Positions 53,913-60,845 of a stretch of DNA of 62,450 bases are shown one piece after another. The notes under the pieces were generated by a model. It saw nothing but the letters and a program-made list of their open reading frames with translations. It did not search any database and was not told the DNA's origin. Positions within the stretch are counted from its first letter, which is position 1; every line of letters begins with the position of its first letter. The position numbers and the translations under genes were made by a program. The DNA is from Paracoccaceae bacterium (GTDB taxonomy: Bacteria > Pseudomonadota > Alphaproteobacteria > Rhodobacterales > Rhodobacteraceae). The stretch covers positions 1-62,450 of the forward strand of contig JAAEZA010000021.1 in assembly GCA_018223125.1 (NCBI GenBank), written 5' to 3'.

Positions 53913-53995
<83 letters not shown>

Positions 53996-54077: not shown

Positions 54078-54563
54078 ATGGTCGGTAAGATTAGGAATCT
54101 TGTGACCCGCGACGGACGTTATCATGCGCGTCTTGTTGTCCCGAAGACACTCCGGGACATGATTGGCAAGACTGAACTACGAGAGCCATTAGGAGGTGAT
54201 CGTCGTGAGGCGATCAAGTCGCTCCCAAGTGCAATAGCGGAGTTTCAGCGTCAGATACTAGCCGCTGAGCAGAAGTTAGCGCAGCAGAACGGACATGTGG
54301 GAGGCTCAACGGAAATAGCGCGCTACCCTATGACGCCTGAGCAAATTGCTCGCAGCCATTATTTGCGTCGTCTTGCCTTCGACGACGAGCTTCGAAATGA
54401 TCCACGATATATGAATATGATGGAGCATCTGGAGCTAGACACGAACTAGTAATCTCCAGAAGTGCGGGAGCGTTATGTACAGCTGGTGTTGGATGACGCA
54501 CCCTCGGTCGGGGCTTCTGTTCTTTCAGATGAAATCCGTGTCCTAGTAAGGGAAACGGTATAG
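54078..54563 (+). pseudogene. Integrase (tyrosine recombinase) N-terminal remnant, interrupted
   Basis: The first 123 codons read as the N-terminal part of a phage-type integrase: RDGRYHARLVVPKTLRDMIGK is the usual SAM-like/DUF6538 opening, and YLRRLAFDDELRNDPRY follows. Two consecutive stop codons (TAG TAA at 54447-54452) interrupt it. The frame stays open after them for 36 more codons (SPEVRERYVQLVLDDAP onward) before a third stop at 54561. The catalytic domain with the Arg-His-Arg-Tyr residues is missing. Its place beside tRNA-Val is that of the recombinase that inserted the island. Confidence 0.78.
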
Positions 54564-54742: not shown

Positions 54743-57577
54743 GTGAATAGCGATATTAGTGTAATTGCCAAACCCAGAGCCTTACAGGCTATGGGAGGCT
54801 GGCAGGCGTCACAGGATTTTCTGCATCATATGCATCAGACACCAACGGCTCCGGCCTTGCGGGTTGGGGGGAAGCGTTTCAGCTATGAGGATTTGGGACA
54901 ACTGTCACAAGGGCTCGCCCGTGCGGTGCAGGCCGCTTTAGCACAACGGAAGAAGCCTGCTACTGCCTGTGCTATTTTCGCAGACCGCAGCCCCGAGAGT
55001 TACGCAGGTGTGCTGGCCGCGCTGCAACTGGGCCTGTCGTATGTGCCGCTTAATCCGAAATTTCCAGCTGAACGCAACCGTATGCTGCTGGAACGGTCCA
55101 AAGCTGGCTTTGTAATCTGTTCTCCGTCGGAACAGGCACACATGGAAGAACTGACACGCGGGACTGATGTTCAGATTGTCGCCGCGCCACAAGACGGGCC
55201 GCTTTTAGAGGCGGACATAAACAACCCCATTGCTTATATTCTTTTCACCTCGGGCAGCACTGGCATGCCCAAGGGGGTAGAGATCAGTCATGCCAACCTT
55301 GATGCCTATCTGTCTGCGGCACTGTCCGTCACGGATTACGGACCTGCCGACCGGTTTTCGCAGAACTTTGATTTGACATTTGATTTGTCGGTACATGACA
55401 TGTTCCTTTGCTGGCGCGTTGGCGGAGAACTGATCGTACCTTCGGCCAAGGATCTGGAGTACCCTGCAGAATACATACAGCGGGAGGGCGTAACCTGCTG
55501 GTTCTCGGTGCCTTCGCTGGCACAGAAAATGAACCTGCAGCATGGACTGGCCCAAGGGTCACTCAGTAGCATTCGGCATTCGCTTTTCTGTGGCGAAGCG
55601 CTGCCACTGGATCTGGCTGTTAAATGGCAGGCCGCTACAGGCAGCGTGGTAGAAAACTGGTACGGCCCGACCGAAGCCACTATCGCATGCATGCGATATC
55701 GCCTGCCTGAGCAGGCGGGGCAGATGGAGACGCACTTGGGTCTGACACCGATCGGTGATTGCCTGCCGGGTATGCGCGCCTTGGTGCTGGACACGGACAT
55801 GCAAGAGGTAGAACCTGGCGGCACCGGCGAGTTGTACATGGCCGGTCCTCAACTGGCTCAAGGTTATCTGGATGATCGGGAAAAAACCGCAGCCGCATTT
55901 ATGGACCTGCCACAGCACGGTGGGCGATTCTACCGGACCGGCGACAGGGTAAAACGCGTTCGGGCGGATGAACTGCATTTTATTGATCGTGCGGATAACC
56001 AGATCAAGATCCGTGGATACCGCGTCGAGATTGGCGAAATCGAAGCCCGCATTCGCGAGTTGACTGGCGGCTGTTCCGCCGTGGTGACGCCGCTGCCGCT
56101 GAAGTCTCCGGTTCCGACGGTGCTGGTTGCTTCGATAGAGGGGTGGGATGGCGACAGTGCTGCGCTTCTGGACCGGCTGGGAGAGGTGCTGCCTTCTTAT
56201 ATGATACCTTCTGCACTACGCTTGGAGGCGAGCTTCCCCAAAAACGCCAGCGGCAAGGTGGATCGCGGTTCGATTGGCGCAGCTTTGGCGGCCGAAACGG
56301 AAACTGCGGCTTCGACGACAACAGAGAATGTGCGCGTTGTTACGACGCAAAATATGCGCCGTCAGCTTATCTCTTTGGTTCGGCAGATCAATCCAGCGCT
56401 AAGCAGGGACGCAATTCTCGATGCACCGGACCTTATGGCGGCTGGGCTGGATTCCCTGGCTTTTGCGGAATTTTCGGTCCGGCTTGAGAAGCACTTTGGT
56501 CTGGAGTTGGATCAGAACCTCGTCGCAGATATGGCTGAAATGCGTATCGGCAAGCTGGCTAAACAGGTCAAACGTCTGCTTGAACCGGTGATTGAAAACC
56601 ACCCTGCGGCCGGAACGGGCATGGCATCCCTTCAACGGAAAAACAGAAAAGCTGCTGGCAGGGGCAAAGTAAATAACAAGCGCGGTAATAAGATTGCAAA
56701 AAAGACGGTGCACTATAAATCCCGACGTACCATCGAATGTGTGAACCAGTTTCCTGACTGGGCGGCGGCGGCTGAACACCCGTTGGCACTGTTCTTCGGA
56801 TCTTCCGGAGTAGCCGCGGCCATAGATACCAAGGTTGTCGAGGCGCGTGCTGCAGCATTGGGAATACCGGTCTGCGCGGCCAATCTCGGGATGGCCAAAC
56901 TTAGCAATGCAGGCACGGTCGAACTGGTTGAATACGTAGGTGATGTGATCCGTGAACTGGGCAAGCCTGTAGCCTTTGGCGTCTATGAATTGGAGCTGAT
57001 GCAGCTTAGCCCTTTGCCGACGGGACGGGAGATCGAAGTCGTCAAAGCATATCTGGAGGGAGATTATGTTCTGGAAGAGCTGGACAATATCGATCCTTGG
57101 AACCGATGGGAGACCGAGGCCGGCGGAACTATCCTGCAGCGAGAAGGCAAAAGAAACGCTGCCGATCAGGCGCCAGCTTCAAGTGCGCAGTGGAGTAAAA
57201 AACGCGAAGCCGAGGTCGCTAATGCGCATATAGGCCAGCTTGAATTTATAGAAATACAACGGAATATCTGGCTACAGGGAGCCGCGATCGCCGAAAGCTT
57301 TTGTCCGCGTCTGCTGGGGTTTGTACATCCGGTAGAAGAGTCCGTCATACGTGCGGCGCAGGATCGAGGCGCGGCAGGGCCCCACCTCGATAATCTGTTT
57401 GACGAGGTAGACGTTGCTTTGCGTCACCCGCTCGTCCGGCCTTCAGAGTTGGAACTGAAACCCGAAGATTTCCGTGATTTCCATCACGTCAACCGTTTCA
57501 GTGGTAGAGAGAAAATGTCAAAACAGCTTACCAATGCCGCATTAGCAGTTGGAAGGTACGAACCTGCGGCGGGTTAA
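54743..57577 (+). CDS. Adenylation-carrier-SGNH (DltA-DltC-DltD-like) fusion protein
   Basis: The 944-residue protein starts at GTG with AGGTGA upstream. Residues 25-515 are an amino-acid adenylation domain: FTSGSTGMPKG (168-178), FDLS with D214 (the alpha-amine-binding aspartate of GrsA), NWYGPTEAT (305-313), YRTGD (397-401), KIRGYRVEIGEIEA and K505. Residues 535-612 are a carrier domain with S571 in GLDSL. A basic linker (630-662) leads to an SGNH/DltD-like domain (675-935) with FFGSSGVA (S687/S688) and DFHHVN (D912, H915). No membrane helix or signal is seen. It probably activates an amino acid, loads it on its own carrier and transfers or releases it. Substrate and acceptor are unknown. 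Confidence 0.82.
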   Translation: MNSDISVIAKPRALQAMGGWQASQDFLHHMHQTPTAPALRVGGKRFSYEDLGQLSQGLARAVQAALAQRKKPATACAIFADRSPESYAGVLAALQLGLSYVPLNPKFPAERNRMLLERSKAGFVICSPSEQAHMEELTRGTDVQIVAAPQDGPLLEADINNPIAYILFTSGSTGMPKGVEISHANLDAYLSAALSVTDYGPADRFSQNFDLTFDLSVHDMFLCWRVGGELIVPSAKDLEYPAEYIQREGVTCWFSVPSLAQKMNLQHGLAQGSLSSIRHSLFCGEALPLDLAVKWQAATGSVVENWYGPTEATIACMRYRLPEQAGQMETHLGLTPIGDCLPGMRALVLDTDMQEVEPGGTGELYMAGPQLAQGYLDDREKTAAAFMDLPQHGGRFYRTGDRVKRVRADELHFIDRADNQIKIRGYRVEIGEIEARIRELTGGCSAVVTPLPLKSPVPTVLVASIEGWDGDSAALLDRLGEVLPSYMIPSALRLEASFPKNASGKVDRGSIGAALAAETETAASTTTENVRVVTTQNMRRQLISLVRQINPALSRDAILDAPDLMAAGLDSLAFAEFSVRLEKHFGLELDQNLVADMAEMRIGKLAKQVKRLLEPVIENHPAAGTGMASLQRKNRKAAGRGKVNNKRGNKIAKKTVHYKSRRTIECVNQFPDWAAAAEHPLALFFGSSGVAAAIDTKVVEARAAALGIPVCAANLGMAKLSNAGTVELVEYVGDVIRELGKPVAFGVYELELMQLSPLPTGREIEVVKAYLEGDYVLEELDNIDPWNRWETEAGGTILQREGKRNAADQAPASSAQWSKKREAEVANAHIGQLEFIEIQRNIWLQGAAIAESFCPRLLGFVHPVEESVIRAAQDRGAAGPHLDNLFDEVDVALRHPLVRPSELELKPEDFRDFHHVNRFSGREKMSKQLTNAALAVGRYEPAAG

Positions 57578-57601: not shown

Positions 57602-58516
57602 TTATAGCGCTTTACGGTAGCCCAATTGGGCGGCCTTCGGGAAGTTAACTTTCTCGGCTATCTGGCGGACTTCAGCATGAGCATCGGACTTCCAGGAAGA
57701 AGCTGGTCGGATCTCGATTTTGGTAGCTTGCTTTTGCAAGACTTCTTCGTTTGCGGGCGGGAACAGATGCGTACGTTCCCATGAGATTTCCGCACTTTGG
57801 AGCCCGGTAAAGAAGCTGGTGTTCTGCGCCAATCCGGCCCAGGCTTGGATCTGTTCAAGCACCATCTTGGGGGCGCTTGCAAAATCCTCGTATTTCAGCT
57901 GCAGGTAGGCATTTCCGGCCAATTGCTCCAGCTCTTGCATGCGTTTTACCCGTTTGTTCCAGTTGCGCGCGCGCTGGCGTAAAACCTCCGGTTTATTAAC
58001 GAGTTTGCTCCAGCTTACGACAACGGCGCGGGGATCACGCACCAAATTAAGGATATGCAGCTCGATCTCTCCGGTGAGTTGCAATGCCAGTGCAAGGTTG
58101 GGGATCTTCGAAGAATCAATCAGTACACGATTTTGTGCCTCTGCGCTGGCAAAACGGTAGAGACTGACCAGCAGTTCCAGAAAGCCGGCGTGTGCCGCGC
58201 GAATATCACTGCGTGCGGCAGCATCACTCCAGTCCTTAATCTCGTTAGAGGCTTTCTGGAAGGCGGCAAATCCGTCACGCAACTCTTCCATGGCGCTTGA
58301 TCCGTGGTGCTGCGCCATGCAGTCAGCTACTTTCCCCCAGTAACCACATAGCGGCAGTGTTTGACCGCAGGAACACTGCCAGTTCTTGTTCATGGACGCT
58401 GCCAGATGGCGGATCTGGCCGACATTCTGACAATCCTCGTTCTGTGACAAAAGCTGAGATAAAAAGGTGCTACCGGAGCGCCCGGCTCCGGCGATAAAAA
58501 CGACTTTAGTAGTCAC
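57602..58516 (-). CDS. PAPS-dependent sulfotransferase family protein
   Basis: The 304-residue protein has the 5'-phosphosulfate loop GAGRSGSTFLSQLL (10-23) and the 3'-phosphate segment LVRDPRAVVVSW (about 158-169), as in cytosolic sulfotransferases. A cysteine-containing stretch WQCSCGQTLPLCGYWG (46-61) recalls bacterial sulfotransferases acting on glycans or lipids. Translation starts at GTG with AAGGGG upstream. It is convergent with the adenylation fusion gene, 24 bases away, inside the island. The acceptor is unknown. It could modify the same product. Confidence 0.86.
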   Translation of the reverse strand: MTTKVVFIAGAGRSGSTFLSQLLSQNEDCQNVGQIRHLAASMNKNWQCSCGQTLPLCGYWGKVADCMAQHHGSSAMEELRDGFAAFQKASNEIKDWSDAAARSDIRAAHAGFLELLVSLYRFASAEAQNRVLIDSSKIPNLALALQLTGEIELHILNLVRDPRAVVVSWSKLVNKPEVLRQRARNWNKRVKRMQELEQLAGNAYLQLKYEDFASAPKMVLEQIQAWAGLAQNTSFFTGLQSAEISWERTHLFPPANEEVLQKQATKIEIRPASSWKSDAHAEVRQIAEKVNFPKAAQLGYRKAL

Positions 58517-59018: not shown

Positions 59019-59055
59019 TCGGGAGTTCGAGCCTCTCACGACCCACCATTTACCC
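59019..59055. repeat. Right attachment site (37-bp copy of tRNA-Val 3' end)
   Basis: The copy is identical over 37 bases to 53959-53995. It includes the T arm, acceptor strand and CCA of tRNA-Val but no upstream tRNA sequence, so it is not a tRNA gene. It marks the right end of the island. Confidence 0.88.
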
Positions 59056-59669
59056 CAAACTTCCATGGCGCGCTACCGCAGCGCTTCTGAGGAACTCTGC
59101 GTCGCTGGCAAAGTGCTTGCCTCTAATCCCCTGAGAACGGATTTTGGTTGGGTCATCATGAAAGCGTGATGACTTTTTTCGCTGGACTGGCAACTGTTTG
59201 TTCACTGGAAGGTCGAAAGACAAACACGTTGAATTCCGGTTTAGGCGCTAACAGAACAGTAGACCGTTCAAATTAACGAAGCATGCTCCGCCAAGGACCA
59301 ACTGTGATGGCGGCTATTCGGCGAAGTATAGAGGGTGAGCGCTGGCGGGTCGGATGGTTGCTCACGTCCCATTGCAGACATCCGATCAGGCGTCACTCGC
59401 TGCACTGCGGATTCCTCTCGTCCGTCGTTCTCTCAAATTGCGCGAGCACTATTCGCGCGGAGGTTAGGGCCATGAAGAACTTCGGGGACTGAATATTTTG
59501 ATAAGTATTTTTCTAACCTTGCATTGTAAAATTGTTGAACTTATCAATTTCACCAAAAAATGAGAACACGGTTTTAAATATTACTTTCATACCTTTAGAT
59601 CCCGCCTTCGAACGGGGCGCACCATACCGCGGCAGCCCATCAAAAGGCACAATTCAGAGCGCATCTTCC
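59056..59669. other. Gap right of the island; terminator-like hairpin, no gene supported
   Basis: No frame here has family similarity. GTCATCA (59152-59158) and TGATGAC (59167-59173) form a 7-bp stem followed by six T's on the plus strand, a good terminator with no intact gene in front of it, which hints at a lost gene. From about 59490 to 59600 the sequence is strongly AT-rich and probably holds the promoter of the TMEM43-family gene. Confidence 0.5.
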
Positions 59670-60845
59670 ATGAGAAAGTTTACTCAAACCACCAATGTCG
59701 GGCTTGGCCCGCGATTGAAAAAGGCATTCAAGGACGTCGGGCTTGGGGTGGCATTGATCGGCTTCGCGCTCATGGGGATTCTCTGGAACGAAGGTAGTTC
59801 GGTCAAGGAGGCGCGGGCGTTAGACGAGGGCGCGGGCTTTGTCGTGCCCTTGACTGATCTGACGCCAAGCGCGGAAAATGAGGGTGCGCTGGTTCACATC
59901 AGCGGGCCGCTGACGCTCGACGGGAACCTGGCAGACACGGTGCTTGGCATTGAGGGCGGCGCGCAAACCGTGCGGTTGGAACGGAAGGTCGAGCAGTTTG
60001 CATGGATTGAAGAGTCCCGCACCGGCATCAAGACCAACGCTGGCGGCTCGCAGGACCGCACCACAAATTACACTTACCGCTTGGCGTGGACGGATAGCCC
60101 CGAGTCTGGCGCGTCCTTTTACGTTTCCGAAGGCCATGAAAACCCACCAGTCCCGATCCGCAGCAATACACGCCGTCACAAAACAGGACAAATCGGCGGC
60201 TTCATGGTGAGCGAAGGCGTTGGTGATCTCGGTGTTTCTGAGCAGATGATCTTGGCACAGCGACAGGCGGATATGATCGCCGCCGCGCTCAAACCGGACC
60301 GTGCAGCACATTTGACGGCGGGTGCCGTGCAATTCTCCGAGAATGTCCACGATCCGCAACTGGGCGATCTGCGTATCAGCTATTTCACCTCCGACATTGA
60401 GGAGGCGAGTGCCGTTGGCAAGCAGGATCTGGGCACGGTGGTCCCCTATGTGGCACAGAACGGGACAACGGTTTTTCTGCTCGAAGAGGGTCTTCAGCCC
60501 GCCGGCCAGATGTTTGAGACCGCACAGGCCGTGAGCCGCCACAAGACTTGGGTGTTTCGCGTGCTGCTGCTTGTGATGATGTTTATCGGGTTCAAAGCGC
60601 TTCTGTCGATCGTTGGTGTGCTGGCCAGTGCCGTCCCCGTATTAGGTTGGCTAACCTCCAATCTGACGACGCTGATCGCCGTTGCTCTAACGGTGCTAGT
60701 CGGTGGTGGCGCGATGGCTATCGCTTGGCTTATGGTGCGCCCCCTCGTGTCGGGCGCGATCTTAACAGGCGTGCTCTCCGTCGCTGTCGTGGTCGGCGCA
60801 CAGGTCGGCCGCAAAGCTCAAACGACCCCCTCTCAATCATTCTAA
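59670..60845 (+). CDS. TMEM43-family membrane protein
   Basis: The 391-residue protein has one hydrophobic helix near the N-terminus (about 24-39), a large soluble loop (about 45-310) and three or four hydrophobic helices at about 315-385. This topology and the opening FKDVGLGVALIGFALMGILWNEG, with NEG after the first helix, match the TMEM43 (DUF1625) family. The function in bacteria is unknown. The ATG at 59670 fits the family N-terminus, and a longer frame is rejected. A small exported protein gene starts 19 bases after its stop, so they may form an operon. Confidence 0.82.
   Translation: MRKFTQTTNVGLGPRLKKAFKDVGLGVALIGFALMGILWNEGSSVKEARALDEGAGFVVPLTDLTPSAENEGALVHISGPLTLDGNLADTVLGIEGGAQTVRLERKVEQFAWIEESRTGIKTNAGGSQDRTTNYTYRLAWTDSPESGASFYVSEGHENPPVPIRSNTRRHKTGQIGGFMVSEGVGDLGVSEQMILAQRQADMIAAALKPDRAAHLTAGAVQFSENVHDPQLGDLRISYFTSDIEEASAVGKQDLGTVVPYVAQNGTTVFLLEEGLQPAGQMFETAQAVSRHKTWVFRVLLLVMMFIGFKALLSIVGVLASAVPVLGWLTSNLTTLIAVALTVLVGGGAMAIAWLMVRPLVSGAILTGVLSVAVVVGAQVGRKAQTTPSQSF

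Follow-up and report, generated by a model that had tools for sequence, protein, structure and literature searches.

Known Polymer Acylation Systems and the Studied Locus

Two major bacterial systems of polymer acylation are named in PMC12148441, and known acylation is a process in which the acyl group crosses the membrane and the reaction is finished outside. The role assigned there to DltB and DltX of the Dlt system is to bring the acyl group across the membrane, and the MBOAT-SGNH and AT3-SGNH acyltransferases, such as PatA/PatB and OatA, are described as acting on envelope polymers through acyl-serine SGNH chemistry (PMC12148441). A sulfated capsule has been modelled as reaching its final size first and leaving through an ABC transporter afterwards (PMC11641403).

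The window analyzed here is a stretch of 62,450 nucleotides from a marine bacterium that encodes, in one chain, an adenylation domain, a carrier domain, and an SGNH domain, next to a partner sulfotransferase gene. The explanation we favor, with a probability of about 0.58, is that the chain works in the cytosol and transfers aminoacyl groups to a surface glycan, which is co-sulfated by the partner and exported by an ABC transporter. What computation shows is the order of the domains and their fold, the conserved residues, the linkage to the partner, the capsule or exopolysaccharide (EPS) context (5/15 loci), and the structure of the islet. The two genes and their domains are as follows.

54743..57577, plus strand: adenylation-carrier-SGNH chain, GTG start, 944 residues (open frame and domain models)
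54824..56275, plus strand: adenylation domain, about residues 28-511 (Pfam/NCBIfam models)
56345..56578, plus strand: carrier (PP-binding) domain, residues 535-612 by estimate, best Pfam stretch 562-594
56453-56455, plus strand: codon of the phosphopantetheine serine S571 in the carrier domain
56699..57574, plus strand: SGNH domain as modelled, residues 653-944, with S688, E749, H862, D912, and H915
56804-56806, plus strand: codon of S688, the serine of FFGSSG in the SGNH domain
57602..58516, minus strand: partner sulfotransferase (family A), 304 residues, Sulfotransfer_3, convergent with the chain across a 24 bp gap

Domain Organization and Substrate Pocket

The sequence-only reading had proposed a single 944-residue chain (54743..57577) with adenylation, carrier (S571), and SGNH domains, and both domain models and fold agree with it. 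In Pfam, AMP-binding scores 226 bits (cut-off 29.9) and PP-binding 24.6 bits (cut-off 20.8), AMP-binding_C stays at 15.8 bits, below its cut-off of 24.5, and no model exceeds its cut-off in the C-terminus. In NCBIfam, AA-adenyl-dom (TIGR01733) scores 335.7 bits against a cut-off of 317.4, and the DltA equivalog TIGR01734 scores 251.2 bits, far under its cut-off of 559.85. As had been claimed, the chain has no membrane helix or signal by hydropathy, the highest 19-residue mean being 1.42 and that of the first 60 residues 0.31; the maxima of 12 other rows, which include one duplicate and leave out L014, L043, and L044, range from 1.19 to 1.84, the top value coming from the L026 adenylation domain.

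Compared with the Amylibacter cionae m18 copy, also of 944 residues, the chain has a dN/dS of 0.19 (144.8 synonymous and 94.2 non-synonymous changes) and is under purifying selection; because of this and of the same domain order in 15 loci, it is not a chance frame. The SGNH part differs from A. cionae m18 by a dS of 0.07 and 5 residue changes, and the adenylation part by a dS of 0.32 and 42 changes, as if the 3' part of the gene had been exchanged by recombination.

The pocket residues of the adenylation domain, numbered by what we take to be the GrsA positions and compared visually with the LgrA alignment, are D214, L215, H218, F254, L281, C283, W306, I314, A315, and K505. The string D-L-H-F-L-C-W-I-A-K is identical at 9/10 positions in all 14 rows with letters, and the sole variation is S for A in L043; L014/L028 is incomplete with masked letters and was used only as far as readable. 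One amino acid is likely common to the whole chain family, and F254 and W306 suggest that it is probably small.

Distribution of the Chain

A search for the domain order and its neighbors, which the sequence-only reading had proposed, gave 15 loci with the same adenylation-carrier-SGNH order, including the window, each with a homologue of the partner sulfotransferase on the contig. The other 14 are listed below.

L037: A. cionae m18
L026: NORP86
L014: Thalassobium R2A62
L040: Maliponia aquimaris
L015, L016, L038, L039, L041: further members of the window organism's family, some metagenomic
L043, L044: plasmids of Leisingera thetidis and Phaeobacter sp. G2, with the homologues OKQ63_RS25960 in the former species and N1037_21570 in the latter
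L029, L031, L033: gammaproteobacterial bins

At E 0.001, the SGNH domain occurs in 5/198 genomes of the family, one of them (G143) with only a 66-residue match, in 7/390 genomes of the order, one of them (G517) with a decayed piece, and in 4/398 genomes of the phylum, namely two true chains, one MBOAT partner, and one weak match. At E 0.01, it was found in 2 of 72,556 plasmids; 37 pattern matches in genome_contigs yielded 12 loci with the domain, and none of the 27 pattern matches in viral_contigs was confirmed. Left out of the 15 were L027 (the L026 surroundings repeated elsewhere on the same contig), L030 (a contig-start piece with the SGNH end only), L042/G517 (the decayed piece), L013/G143 (the 66-residue partial match), L076/G680 (weak match), and L075/G850 (MBOAT-partner protein); L025, L028, L032, L034, L035, and L036 duplicate L037, L014, L038, L015, L040, and L016, respectively, their contigs being of equal length. 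The carrier model of L016 scores 20.1 bits, just under the PP-binding cut-off of 20.8. The remnant L042 lies near a contig start, contains stops, and has a changed catalytic-His position.

Fold and Conserved Residues of the SGNH Domain

Structure prediction and fold search, the check that the sequence-only reading had named for the C-terminal region, gave an SGNH fold for residues 653-944 and not an unrelated one (Foldseek, VIA-align). Foldseek returned nothing at E 0.001 or better (best 1.7e-3, DltD second at 1.9e-3), and VIA-align settled the fold: its three top rows are the designed scaffolds 9hi5, 9hi4, and 9hi6, and the longest alignments among the 50 entries listed are DltD chains. Over 243 columns, the profile of the domain matches a DltD-like SGNH protein whose gene adjoins that of an MBOAT (hhalign probability 96.6, E 6.6e-10), and two unrelated controls gave 0.2 and 0.1; its sequence comparison with the PDB gave only chance matches, at E 0.89 or worse. 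The claim of a DltD-like C-terminus is thus supported by the modelled fold and the profile match. The MBOAT gene and the DltD-like gene after it lie at 138-2526 of L075 (G850), and the latter encodes the closest outside relative of the domain that was met. DltD PF04914 matched 0/12 members of the SGNH family at E up to 10, a search in which the HMMER filters drop most weak matches; Pfam as a whole gave only two single chance-level matches among these 12 (E 0.16 and 0.17). Over 14 genomes, PF04914 was found in the B. subtilis and L. lactis controls only, and not in the window genome.

K505, S571, G686, S687, S688, G716, E749, H862, and H915 are unchanged in 15/15 rows. S688 is the block I serine after the first strand, G716 is assigned by eye as the block II glycine, the block III region holds the invariant E749 without an assigned Asn, and H915 is the candidate histidine of the block V DxxH. 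Both FFGSSG and the DFHH pair (D912/H915) noted earlier are present, with the qualification that D912 is not fixed in the family: D occurs in 8/15 rows and N in 7/15.

The fold also admits two other functions. The SGNH domain could act as a hydrolase or thioesterase that sets the amino acid free or transfers it to a small acceptor in solution, in which case the product would be a small aminoacyl metabolite and not a decorated glycan; hydrolases and thioesterases do have this fold, with comparable Z (1vyh 12.5, TesA 11.4), the chain has no condensation domain (Pfam), and the window islet carries no glycan gene. However, the longest listed alignments are to DltD chains, the remote homologue is the DltD-like MBOAT partner, capsule contexts and a constant sulfotransferase partner (below) accompany the chain, and pure hydrolysis would be a futile cycle, so we regard this function as unlikely. 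Alternatively, the adenylation and carrier domains alone might be active, with the SGNH domain being an esterase that edits or removes glycan groups and is fused for other reasons. This agrees with the variation at D912 and with the sialate O-acetylesterases and carbohydrate esterase among the listed structural matches (7pzg, 6njc, 5b5s), but the order of carrier then SGNH is constant and no separate aminoacyl-transferase gene was recognized by eye beside the chain in the 15 loci, which makes it very unlikely. Aminoacyl transfer to a glycan remains the preferred function.

Partner Sulfotransferase

The sequence-only reading had called the chain a self-contained machine and does not mention the sulfotransferase at 57602-58516, which shares the island with it. 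The description as self-contained is not supported, since a homologue of this partner lies on the contig of the chain in 15/15 loci and five of the loci are capsule or EPS clusters. The partner matches Sulfotransfer_3 (PF13469) at 61.5 bits against a Pfam cut-off of 27 and has P-loop-like and RDPxxxxxS motifs; GxGR(S/T)G(S/T)T, D(S/T)SK, RDPRAVxxSW, and HL(F/Y)PPxN are kept in the 12 aligned members, which are 12 of the 15 loci without L014, L015, and L031. Three cysteines (CxC...C) also occur, together with HL(F/Y)PPxN, in 12/12 aligned partners; from the alignment, the former is perhaps a metal site and the latter perhaps a substrate loop.

In 12/15 loci the homologue lies within 1.1 kb of the chain, in L041/L057 and L014 roughly 10 kb separate the two, and in L015 it is a 38-residue piece at the contig edge. 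Its orientation varies, being convergent with the chain in the window, L037, and L043, divergent in L026, L029, L031, L033, and L044, and on the same strand in L016, L038, L039, and L040; the frames are open in the loci checked. All 6 genomes with the partner at E 1e-20 among 390 genomes of the order are among the 7 with the SGNH domain, where each search covered 390 genomes and the two sets are taken to be the same. The probability of this co-occurrence by chance is 1.5e-12 counted by genomes and 3.4e-7 counted by genera, with kinship ignored.

A second sulfotransferase is fused in frame ahead of the adenylation domain in L015, L016, L038, L039, and L040, recognized as Sulfotransfer_3 by Pfam in L016 and by tblastn with the L026 protein in the other four. 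It is a separate gene in L026 and L031 and a short piece in L029; Pfam was run on L016, L026, and L029 only, and the L029 piece falls below the cut-off. Polyketide-synthase sulfotransferase domains act on carrier-bound substrates, and the nearest solved sequences to the partner, although weak, are of this kind (4gox, E 0.0099; CurM 4gbm, E 0.19). Together with the five fusions, this suggests another explanation, in which the sulfotransferase O-sulfates a hydroxyl amino acid bound to the carrier and the SGNH domain transfers or releases the sulfo-aminoacyl group. Against it, the fused domain belongs to another subfamily than the partner and was found neither in the stretches read of L037, L033, L041, L057, L043, L044, and L014 nor in the window islet; W306 and F254 suggest a small side chain; and there are the five capsule or EPS clusters, as well as further sulfotransferase genes in L044 (annotated) and sulfotransferase-like frames in L014 (by eye). 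We consider this explanation quite unlikely, and co-sulfation of the glycan remains preferred.

Capsule and Exopolysaccharide Surroundings

Five of the 15 chain loci lie in capsule or EPS clusters, four of them with an ABC exporter; the Kps models match there under their cut-offs.

L014: KpsM-like, KpsE-like, ABC ATPase, and glycosyltransferase, with further frames resembling sulfotransferases by eye
L026: UDP-galactopyranose mutase and ABC exporter
L057: ABC-2 permease, KpsE-like, and Poly_export, immediately adjoining the sulfotransferase
L043: rfbABCD, sugar transferase, export protein, and, within this stretch, no listed ABC exporter
L044: ABC exporter, glf, glycosyltransferases, and further annotated sulfotransferase genes

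No evident glycan cluster was seen in the DNA read of the other 10 loci, mostly by eye, and the window islet has no glycan gene among its open frames and Pfam matches. The window genome carries a KpsE-like protein and an ABC ATPase on another contig, and two PF01648 matches. Because the partner accompanies the chain in 15/15 loci and five loci are capsule or EPS clusters, the chain appears to belong to a glycan pathway as a modifying enzyme and not to stand by itself. In the gammaproteobacterial loci, some 5 kb or less separate the chain from an AAA-FHA ATPase (L029, 12950-14215; L031, 10587-11846; both scanned) that weakly resembles the XrtA/PEP-CTERM ATPase, below the cut-off; similar-looking frames occur in L030 and L033.

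The tRNA-Val Islet

In the window, the two genes are enclosed by two identical repeats at a tRNA gene.

53913..53988, plus strand: tRNA-Val (anticodon tac), integration site (ARAGORN)
53959..53995, plus strand: left 37-bp direct repeat, putative attachment site, covering the tRNA 3' end and 7 bp beyond
54078..54449, plus strand: short open frame with a DUF6538 domain (PF20172, 34.1 bits, cut-off 27), presumably the N-terminal remnant of a tyrosine integrase
59019..59055, plus strand: right 37-bp direct repeat, putative attachment site, 100% identical to the left one

The repeat-to-repeat distance is 5060 bp. In G245, of the same genus, the tRNA-Val is directly followed by a terminator-like sequence and by genes that lie beyond the islet in A. 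cionae m18, for which reason its site is judged empty; at other places, G245 has a diverged chain and a diverged sulfotransferase of its own, and the sulfotransferase is part of a capsule cluster. In A. cionae m18, 4648 bp of the islet are present at 92.4% identity, followed by the repeat, the terminator-like sequence, and the G245-type genes. The terminator-like sequence lies inside the left end of the islet in the window, while in A. cionae m18 it comes behind the right repeat. A simple model with one insertion step falls slightly short of this difference, which probably reflects several insertions at a hot spot. Within the genus, the tRNA-Val site is an insertion hot spot, judged empty in G245 and filled in the window and A. 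cionae m18, with different sequence adjoining the same cargo in the latter two. The DNA to the right of 59055 weakly matches A. cionae m18 at other positions, and another islet may follow there; a TMEM43 family membrane protein, of a family better known from animals, is encoded at 59532-60845 (Pfam, 185.9 bits), just right of the islet.

The short integrase frame and the decayed SGNH-end copy in G517 raise the question of whether the genes on the island are cargo in decay that no longer has a function. Against this stand the dN/dS values relative to A. cionae m18 (chain 0.19, partner 0.14), with both genes at full length, and decay is the least probable of the explanations considered. A defence island was also rejected, as neither the two genes nor the DUF6538 frame are matched by a PADLOC model. 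So was a phage gene: in PHROGs, the adenylation part of the chain matches just two families, both without an assigned function, the sulfotransferase matches none, and viral_contigs gave no confirmed relative.

Proposed Mechanism and Significance

Under the preferred explanation, the adenylation domain would activate one small amino acid with ATP to an adenylate, and the amino acid would then form a thioester on the phosphopantetheine arm of the carrier at S571. We infer all chemical steps, those up to the thioester from the domain families, and likewise the identity of the amino acid, transfer instead of hydrolysis, the acceptor, the use of PAPS, and the cytosolic location. The SGNH domain would take the aminoacyl group onto S688, assisted by H915, and pass it to a hydroxyl or amine on a sugar of a glycan that has not yet left the cytoplasm; such a glycan is most likely what the soluble acceptor of the sequence-only reading becomes. 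The partner sulfotransferase(s) would add sulfate to the same glycan, and the product would exit through an ABC-type capsule exporter. Since the acceptor would be cytosolic and ABC-type export would come afterwards, no DltB/DltX-like membrane relay would be needed. In the window, the two genes would be mobile cargo at tRNA-Val that modifies a glycan whose synthesis is encoded at another place of the genome.

A wider reading, which we hold tentatively and at slightly less than even odds, is a third acylation route besides the MBOAT-SGNH pairs and the AT3-SGNH fusions, in which a soluble carrier-fed SGNH domain aminoacylates a sulfated capsule before export, so that positive amino and negative sulfate charges are combined, and which has spread between marine bacteria as two-gene mobile cargo. 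If true, this would explain the aminoacylation of polymers that are built inside and exported by ABC transporters, and bacterial coats would be decorated without the usual membrane relay. The chain would also be a compact tool for enzymatic glycan modification, and its linkage to sulfotransferases offers a testable tie between two charge modifications of marine bacterial coats. That the pair sits in a tRNA islet suggests mobile cargo as a means of swapping coat chemistry, with possible consequences for recognition by phages and grazers.

Comparison with Known Systems

An NRPS module with a thioesterase shares the adenylation and carrier domains with the chain, but the chain has no condensation domain and carries a C-terminal SGNH domain in the place of the thioesterase, which in NRPSs is usually an alpha/beta-hydrolase. 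AlmEFG, which adds glycine to lipid A in Vibrio, likewise combines an adenylation enzyme for a small amino acid, which stands alone, with a carrier, and 4oxi, which we take to be the AlmE structure, matches the adenylation domain of the chain at E 4.2e-60. There, however, the system consists of three separate proteins, and AlmG is a membrane acyltransferase, not an SGNH protein.

Among the literature matches listed, mainly non-subscription papers represented by titles and abstract starts, neither the adenylation-carrier-SGNH order nor this SGNH family nor its linkage to sulfotransferases was found, and all three were likewise absent from the Pfam/NCBIfam models matched. To this extent, the earlier view that the architecture matches no named system still stands: each domain type is known, and no named family was found for the order, the SGNH family, or the sulfotransferase linkage.

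The MBOAT-SGNH and AT3-SGNH acyltransferases (PatA/PatB, OatA) have the SGNH domain in common with the chain. In those systems, a membrane part carries the acyl group across, whereas the SGNH domain here would be fed by the chain's own carrier domain, and no membrane acyltransferase part was seen in the window chain (hydropathy) or on the islet (Pfam). With the Dlt system (DltA, DltC, DltB, DltX, and DltD), the chain shares the DltD-like fold. Unlike Dlt, it is a single soluble chain; no DltB (MBOAT) or DltX-like gene occurs among the islet frames and Pfam matches, as had been stated for DltB, and the chain is linked to sulfotransferases and, in five loci, to capsule or EPS genes. Because the Dlt sequence tests failed, with the DltA models far below cut-off and the SGNH domain missed by PF04914, the chain is not filed under Dlt. 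One soluble protein that activates, loads, and transfers would, if confirmed, be a third arrangement, and by analogy the chain would work like Dlt minus its membrane step.
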